A DNA stretch of 64,000 bases, from assembly GCA_038501195.1 (NCBI GenBank), contig JBBPUQ010000003.1, positions 1,256,501 through 1,320,500 on the forward strand, written 5' to 3'. The DNA comes from Nemania diffusa (lineage: Eukaryota; Ascomycota; Sordariomycetes; Xylariales; Xylariaceae). The position numbers and the translations under genes are program-made. The notes beneath the pieces are model-generated. The model did no database searches. It worked only from the letters and a program-made list of their open reading frames with translations, and was not told the origin of the DNA. Below are positions 49,767 through 49,944 of this stretch, piece by piece. The first letter of the stretch is position 1. Each line of letters begins with the position of its first letter.

Positions 49767-49772
49767 AAAAAA
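49767..49772 (-). terminator. Candidate RNA polymerase III terminator (T6)
   Basis: On the minus strand six T follow the tRNA-Lys 3' end by 42 nt. No run of four T occurs on that strand within the tRNA gene or its insert, so Pol III could read the whole gene before stopping here. Confidence 0.6.
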
Positions 49773-49814
49773 TTTGGTTGCTACTCCTAGTATTCTAAGA
49801 GGCATCAGGAATTG

Positions 49815-49944
49815 AGCCCAATGCGGGGGTCGAACCTATTATTTAGCATTAGTATTTTGTAACCATGGATGATTTTTTATCTCGTCACTCACCCGCAACC
49901 TTGAGATTAAGAGTCTCACGCTCTACCGATTGAGCTAACCGGGC
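49815..49944 (-). tRNA. tRNA-Lys(CUU): tRNA-Lys(CUU) interrupted in the T-stem by an intron-like insert
   Basis: The two pieces are 49944-49893 (52 nt) and 49835-49815 (21 nt), separated by 57 nt. Joined, they make a perfect 73-nt tRNA. The 7-bp acceptor stem (GCCCGGT with ATTGGGC; two G-T pairs), the D-stem GCTC/GAGC, the anticodon stem TGAGA/TCTCA and the T-stem GCGGG/CCCGC are all fully paired, with T as discriminator. The anticodon loop CTCTTAA gives anticodon CUU (lysine). There is no intron at the usual 37/38 position. The A box (TAGCTCAATCGG) is intact. The B box (GGTTCGACC) stays intact because the last base of the insert supplies its first G. So the gene can still be read by Pol III, but the transcript cannot fold as a tRNA unless the insert is removed. 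It is either a very young pseudogene or a gene with unorthodox maturation. Confidence 0.9.
49836..49892 (-). other. 57-nt spliceosomal-type intron inside the tRNA gene
   Basis: Read on the minus strand, the insert starts GTGAGT and ends ATAATAG. It has TACTAAT with its branch-type A 13 nt before the end. It is 57 nt long and about 30% GC, against about 60% for the tRNA. These are the donor, branch, acceptor, length and composition of the protein-gene introns in this same window (for example those of pik1, 51-67 nt). It lies after tRNA nucleotide 52, inside the T-stem. I see no duplicated target site beyond the shared G at the junctions and no bulge-helix-bulge shape by eye. Confidence 0.8.

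Follow-up and report, generated by a model that had tools for sequence, protein, structure and literature searches.

A spliceosomal-type intron was found inside a nuclear tRNA gene of the fungus Nemania diffusa, in a 64,000-nucleotide (nt) stretch of contig JBBPUQ010000003.1 (positions 1,256,501 to 1,320,500 of assembly GCA_038501195.1; hereafter the window, numbered from its first letter). The gene encodes tRNA-Lys(CUU), lies on the minus strand at 49815–49944, and is split by an insert that separates tRNA positions 52 and 53, one pair from the T-loop. Most genes of this tRNA found in the genome are interrupted at the same point, and a few tRNA-Ile and tRNA-Phe genes carry comparable introns at other points. 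Judged from the sequence, it is highly probable that these are working RNA polymerase III (Pol III) tRNA genes with true U2-type spliceosomal introns, and tRNA making here, for most of the main-lysine genes found and a few Ile and Phe genes, would seem to need the spliceosome.

The split tRNA-Lys(CUU) gene and its family

Exon 1 of the window gene (tRNA positions 1–52; 49893–49944, minus strand, as are all features of the gene) is the same in all 11 Lys(CUU) loci found, and exon 2 (positions 53–73; 49815–49835) is the same in the nine intron-bearing loci, with C for U at position 68 in the two intronless ones. The 57-nt intron between them (49836–49892) starts with the 5′ splice site GTGAGT (49887–49892), holds the branch site TACTAAT (49848–49854) with 13 nt from the branch A to the intron end, and closes with the 3′ splice site TAG (49836–49838); the first-pass annotation, made from the letters, had the same coordinates and signals exactly. 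At 49815–49944 the Rfam tRNA model RF00005 scored 50.1 bits against a gathering score of 29, covering model positions 1–71, and ARAGORN, run with bacterial settings, called no tRNA in the window. Among 200,000 shuffled inserts, none combined a starting GTRAG, a CTAAY with its branch A 8–20 nt from the end, and a final AG. Extended GT…AG ends with a branch site near the 3′ end are the features of a U2-type intron, and the cloverleaf obtained after intron removal, the A and B boxes and the T-run are those of a Pol III tRNA gene. The A box was identified by eye in the D-arm; the putative promoter B box GGTTCGACCCC (49826–49836) is re-formed across the 3′ splice site and, because the last base of the insert is G, survives in the unspliced gene as well; and a T6 run at 49767–49772 is the probable Pol III terminator. 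No group I or group II self-splicing fold was found in the window, whose sole Rfam match at gathering scores is the tRNA, and the inserts are 54–64 nt long.

To place the window gene in its family, the whole genome (55.6 Mb in 16 contigs, from a member of the Xylariaceae related to the wood-inhabiting Hypoxylon and Xylaria) was searched with a 30-nt pattern allowing up to three mismatches, which yielded 11 Lys(CUU) loci, each matching without a mismatch. The first-pass annotation had proposed looking for the same insert in all such loci, and it was present in nine, precisely between positions 52 and 53, a stronger control than the shuffled inserts. The nine introns measure 54–64 nt, start with GTRAGT (eight) or GTAAGC (one), all end with AG, and carry the branch site CTAAC (eight) or CTAAT (one), the distance from the branch A to the end being 13 nt in seven, 12 nt in one and 9 nt in one. 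Once joined, the bodies of the nine genes are identical at 73 of 73 positions, and the lowest-energy fold of this one sequence is the cloverleaf; the bodies of the two intronless copies differ from it solely by C68 for U68. Between the signals, in contrast to the exons, the intron cores reached a mean identity of 58.0% versus 54.7% (standard deviation 0.9) for shuffled ones, so that the paralogous introns retain little but their splice signals, which bears out the spliceosomal-type reading made at first pass. The cores thus appear nearly saturated, and the small excess of identity fits common descent; bearing on an introner origin, they are not near-identical. The upstream flanks of the nine intron-bearing copies gave no clear alignment, and the two intronless copies are similar to one another in this region. 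We read the Lys introns as old, with both their splice signals and the product of joining under selection. A newly dead gene, which had also been considered at first pass, is hard to reconcile with an intron present in nine of the 11 family members found and diverged almost to noise next to nine identical 73-nt bodies.

A whole-genome search with a T-stem signature that requires GTRAGT, CTAAY and GTTCGA, and so misses variants (e.g. locus L043), gave 10 matches versus three for the reversed pattern. Eight of the 10 were Lys(CUU) loci and the other two L176 and L177; the ninth Lys intron, starting with GTAAGC, lies outside the pattern. T-stem introns in other isotypes were not found by this signature search, L176 and L177 having no Rfam match at gathering score. 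The latter two (C6:3862780–3863060 and C10:1136100–1136400) are two copies of a repeat whose T-arm-like part precedes its D-arm-like part, the reverse of the order in a tRNA. Viral contigs and prokaryote genome contigs, scanned with patterns, gave 0 matches. Also seen were three nuclear Lys(UUU) genes that have canonical introns, and in nine of the 13 listed open reading frames of the window the lysine codon AAG occurs 239 times versus 153 for AAA. Next to the split gene lies a Nup82 gene, whose protein is 98.2–99.6% identical to one named Hypoxylon argillaceum and which has, as read from the sequence, an mRNA intron with CTAAC that ends in CAG.

Anticodon-stem introns and interrupted U6 genes

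For a broader view, 137 nuclear tRNA loci were compiled, which are not all tRNA genes of the genome and include ARAGORN calls some of which may be wrong. Three sources contributed: 49 loci from an Rfam search (56 matches, with 63 of 1964 candidates scored), from which seven matches on contigs C12 and C13 had been dropped as probably mitochondrial; the 11 Lys loci, four of them already among the 49; and 88 of 102 loci fetched at places of a D-arm pattern or an Rfam match (87 by ARAGORN and L113 by eye, seven overlapping the others). C12 (220,760 bases) and C13 (207,234 bases) bear the same AT-rich tRNA set in opposite orientation and are perhaps one mitochondrial genome assembled twice.

Spliceosomal-type introns were determined in 13 of the 137 loci, i.e. 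nine Lys(CUU), two Ile(AAU) and two Phe(GAA), and all 13 inserts start with GT, end with AG and hold CTAAC or CTAAT with 9–13 nt after the branch A. Each family has its own 5′ splice site, GTRAGY in 9/9 Lys, GTATGT in 2/2 Ile and GTAAAT in 2/2 Phe introns. The Ile and Phe introns are located in the anticodon stem: those of Ile (L082 and L083, two of the five loci of that tRNA-Ile(AAU) type) are 56 nt, read GTATGT…TACTAAT…CAG and lie between positions 28 and 29, and those of Phe (L111 and L113, two of the eight tRNA-Phe(GAA) loci) are 55 and 57 nt, read GTAAAT…CTAAY…AAG and lie between 30 and 31. These isotype names are our reading of the spliced sequence, the names given by ARAGORN varying before and after splicing. 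An ordinary intron behind the anticodon is, by our reading, present in all four genes as well. L083 without its intron equals the uninterrupted paralogue L084 at 94 of 94 bases compared, and the two paralogous Ile introns agree at 51 of 56 positions. The region C5:1535276–1574905 holds four tRNA-Ile loci inside 40 kb (L083, L099, L088 and L084), of which one, L083, has the spliceosomal-type intron. None of the four interrupted Ile and Phe genes had an Rfam match at gathering score, and none is followed by a trailer like that of the Lys genes. A mechanical search of the 88 fetched genes for a loosened signature, its background being four matches in 29,430 nt, picked out these four genes and, twice, the Leu-type L133, where the matches span the D-arm and the canonical intron.

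Pol III genes with an mRNA-type intron have a precedent, as the U6 small nuclear RNA (snRNA) of Schizosaccharomyces pombe contains one that is spliced (PMC10484740); according to the title of a paper cited there, a match to the B box lies inside Schizosaccharomyces U6 introns. Among three U6 matches in the present genome, two U6 snRNA genes, L070 (C4:4312655–4312807) and L071 (C3:5853313–5853465), are interrupted by a 53-nt GTAAG…CTAAC…AG intron containing the B-box-like AGTTCGARTYC; the third, L072, is an intronless partial copy of the later part only. Because two U6 genes have this 53-nt spliceosomal-type intron, the genome probably already splices Pol III transcripts by the spliceosome, and the pairing of Pol III gene and spliceosome that the tRNA reading needs would have its precedent in fission yeast and very likely in this genome too. 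The signal recognition particle RNA is without an intron, giving a single continuous 278-nt match. The window gene was rightly picked out at first pass, but as a single case it did not hold, since nine Lys genes, two of five Ile, two of eight Phe and two of three U6 matches are interrupted.

The structured trailer of the Lys genes

All 11 Lys genes are followed by the same layout, CTCAATTCCYRATGC and then a second hairpin, which in the window gene forms a conserved 42-nt trailer (49773–49814) whose first element is found in the 11 Lys(CUU) loci. The trailer start CTCAATTCCYRATGC is exact at 10 of them and has one mismatch at the other, and eight more one-mismatch matches lie elsewhere. The first T5 run comes 38–46 nt after the tRNA in 11/11 Lys(CUU) loci; in 21 other nuclear tRNA loci a T4 run comes within 13 nt in 15, later in five, and not within 80 nt in one.

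Hairpin 1 (49802–49824) is T-arm-like and joins tRNA positions 64–71 (GCATTGGG) with CCTGATGC around the loop CTCAATT. All of its 88 cells are paired, versus 37.5–50.0% when slid; six of its eight pairs are invariant and 189 of 500 shuffles match its covariation score, so that its support is conservation. Hairpin 2 (49784–49801) shows covariation in the nine intron-bearing copies, with 62 of 63 cells paired and both-sided changes in four of seven pairs, a value that 0 of 500 shuffles reached. Of the measures used, one, the count of further pair types, did not exceed the shuffles (497/500 as high), and the remaining four did (0/500). From this covariation we argue that RNA is made through the trailer. 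Near the trailer end, comparison of the 11 copies revealed GCAACC (49776–49781), complementary to exon-1 positions 45–50, an element that reads GCAACC in six, GTAACC in two and CCAACC in one of the nine intron-bearing copies and is absent from both intronless ones.

Predicted folds differ between the two groups of genes. When spliced RNA is folded with its trailer, a structure other than the cloverleaf has the lowest energy in 9/9 intron-bearing copies, and the cloverleaf has it in 2/2 intronless ones. The CCYRATGC of the trailer is able to pair with tRNA positions 64–71, and does so in the lowest-energy folds of 9/9 spliced and 9/9 unspliced RNAs and of 0/2 intronless ones; pairing with exon 1 (45–50) occurs in 9/9 spliced, 6/9 unspliced and 0/2 intronless. 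Deletion of the GCAACC end brought the energy gap to zero in eight of nine. The fold models suggest that the trailer may be a device holding the precursor out of the cloverleaf before splicing. As a matter of energy alone the evidence for such a lock is weak, with shuffled trailers disfavouring the cloverleaf at least as strongly in 3–67 of 200 cases per locus (3 only in L042). A trailer that exposes the 5′ splice site was unsupported: the chance of an open site is higher with the trailer in seven of nine, but shuffles equal it in 0–81 of 100, and in fewer than 10 of 100 only in L047 and L048.

A similar downstream element was seen at six tRNA-Ala(AGC) loci, five by pattern and one by eye. There (L149, L151, L152, L155, L156 and L157) a T-arm-like hairpin lies downstream, with a second B-box-like GGTTCAATTCC, or close to it, about 30 nt after the gene's own B box. 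Because of its T-arm likeness and of the element behind these Ala genes, hairpin 1 could reasonably be taken instead for a second B box or for a signal in processing. The 3′ ends of U6 (L070 and L071) before the T-run read GCAACCA or GCAAACCA and resemble the Lys(CUU) trailer end at 49776–49781, which may be chance.

Competing readings and known systems

The anatomy, the common site, the kept signals, the exon identity and the covarying trailer hairpin are plain in the DNA, and the following course of events is proposed on them. Pre-tRNA-Lys would be transcribed from the internal A and B boxes through the structured trailer to the T-run; the spliceosome would excise the intron from the T-stem, a normal T-arm being able to form only afterwards; and the spliced product would presumably be used in translation. 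The nine Lys introns may derive from one old insertion in an ancestral gene that later multiplied, with the two intronless copies as a separate subfamily, and separate insertions would have entered the anticodon stem of tRNA-Ile(AAU) and tRNA-Phe(GAA) genes; the transcripts of these genes would depend on the spliceosome as well as on the tRNA splicing endonuclease (SEN).

Several points weigh against this reading of working, spliceosome-dependent genes. The two intronless copies could provide tRNA-Lys(CUU); GTRAGY and CTAAY could partly persist by descent, though the remaining intron does not; and the Phe gene L113, in whose T-stem one pair has become G-U, may be in decay. In addition, the trailer lock is supported by the unspliced fold in just six of nine, and in the nine precursors the 5′ splice site is predicted to be open at all of its six bases with a probability of ≤0.005. 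Because of the six-of-nine lock and the mostly paired 5′ splice site our confidence was lowered, and we hold the reading as highly probable rather than firmer. A fuller picture is offered tentatively and may well prove wrong in part or whole, namely that most of the principal lysine tRNA is made via the spliceosome, with translation tied to splicing, that some Ile and Phe tRNAs need spliceosome and SEN, and that the Lys trailer, by pairing with 45–50 and 64–71, blocks the cloverleaf until splicing and thereby orders splicing before folding and processing.

The interrupted genes might be inert pseudogenes, or else a dispersed repeat of tRNA origin, and the two intronless copies might supply all tRNA-Lys(CUU), but this appears unlikely. 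Such intronless copies do exist and have the cloverleaf as their lowest-energy fold, and a review describes short D- or T-arm insertions in tRNA genes of eukaryotes as a supposed sign of pseudogenes (PMC4090602); but the 73/73 identity of nine copies was maintained despite introns diverged almost to noise, the splice signals are kept in 9/9 and the T-run in 11/11, and hairpin 2 underwent compensatory changes. It is quite improbable, too, that the intron-bearing loci make a spliceosome-spliced noncoding RNA, tRNA-like in one part and structured in its 3′ domain, that does not mainly serve translation: the conserved trailer, the covarying hairpin 2 and the exon-1 complement in nine copies would suit such an RNA, but all 73 positions including the anticodon are kept, no other Lys(CUU) gene was found by the 30-nt search with up to three mismatches, the trailer also follows the two intronless copies, and a comparable element lies behind tRNA-Ala(AGC) genes. 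Cutting of the inserts by SEN via a relaxed bulge-helix-bulge, with an accidental spliceosomal likeness, is very improbable, for although ectopic SEN-type introns occur in Cyanidioschyzon merolae and archaea (PMC4090602) and a central 4-bp helix is possible with wobbles in three of nine Lys loci, only 5–7 of 10 possible pairs form in the nine loci versus a random mean of 5.0, the outer helix has one of three pairs in 9/9, neither a bulge-helix-bulge nor a position between 37 and 38 was found in the nine Lys copies that the test covered, and such cutting gives no cause for the retention of GTRAGY, CTAAY and AG.

If the preferred reading of spliceosome-dependent tRNA genes is true, such a family would join two separate RNA-processing systems and tie translation to splicing, and the spliceosome would be able to act on strongly folding Pol III precursors. 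A blind spot also shows here: in tRNAscan-SE 2.0 the screen for non-canonical introns is described for candidates from the archaeal search (PMC8450103), the two Ile and two Phe genes went unmatched in Rfam at gathering score, and in other fungi genes of this kind could be tallied as absent or taken for pseudogenes. With nine paralogous introns at one fixed site and two sister genes that lack them, the question can be tested directly. Searches of open-licence PubMed Central, which leaves out most subscription literature and preprints, turned up no account of spliceosomal introns in tRNA genes.

In the textbook account, eukaryotic tRNA splicing is carried out by the SEN endonuclease and a ligase. 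The canonical nuclear tRNA introns removed in this way, between positions 37 and 38, share their host with the present ones, and the Ile and Phe genes described here also have one; the new sites, however, are 52/53, 28/29 and 30/31, with GT-AG ends, a branch site and, in the nine Lys copies, no bulge-helix-bulge. Spliceosomal introns occur in ascomycete nuclear rRNA genes, which are likewise structural RNAs of translation, but rRNA is made by RNA polymerase I and tRNA by Pol III from an internal promoter. Ectopic bulge-helix-bulge introns of archaea, Cyanidioschyzon and nucleomorphs are similar in their T-arm or anticodon-stem location, and in eukaryotes ectopic introns are rare and bulge-helix-bulge-like where understood (PMC4090602, in whose available text ‘spliceosom’ is absent); those use the bulge-helix-bulge where the mechanism is known, whereas here spliceosomal signals are kept instead. 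Closest in kind is the mRNA-type intron of S. pombe U6, where a Pol III gene likewise has a spliceosomal intron, and the U6 introns of this genome enclose a B-box-like sequence too; in the tRNA genes, the host is different, the Lys intron adjoins the B box rather than containing it, and several sites and isotypes are involved. U6 already shows that Pol III genes can contain spliceosomal introns, and what seem new are their presence in tRNA genes, the three positions and the combination of two intron kinds within single genes.
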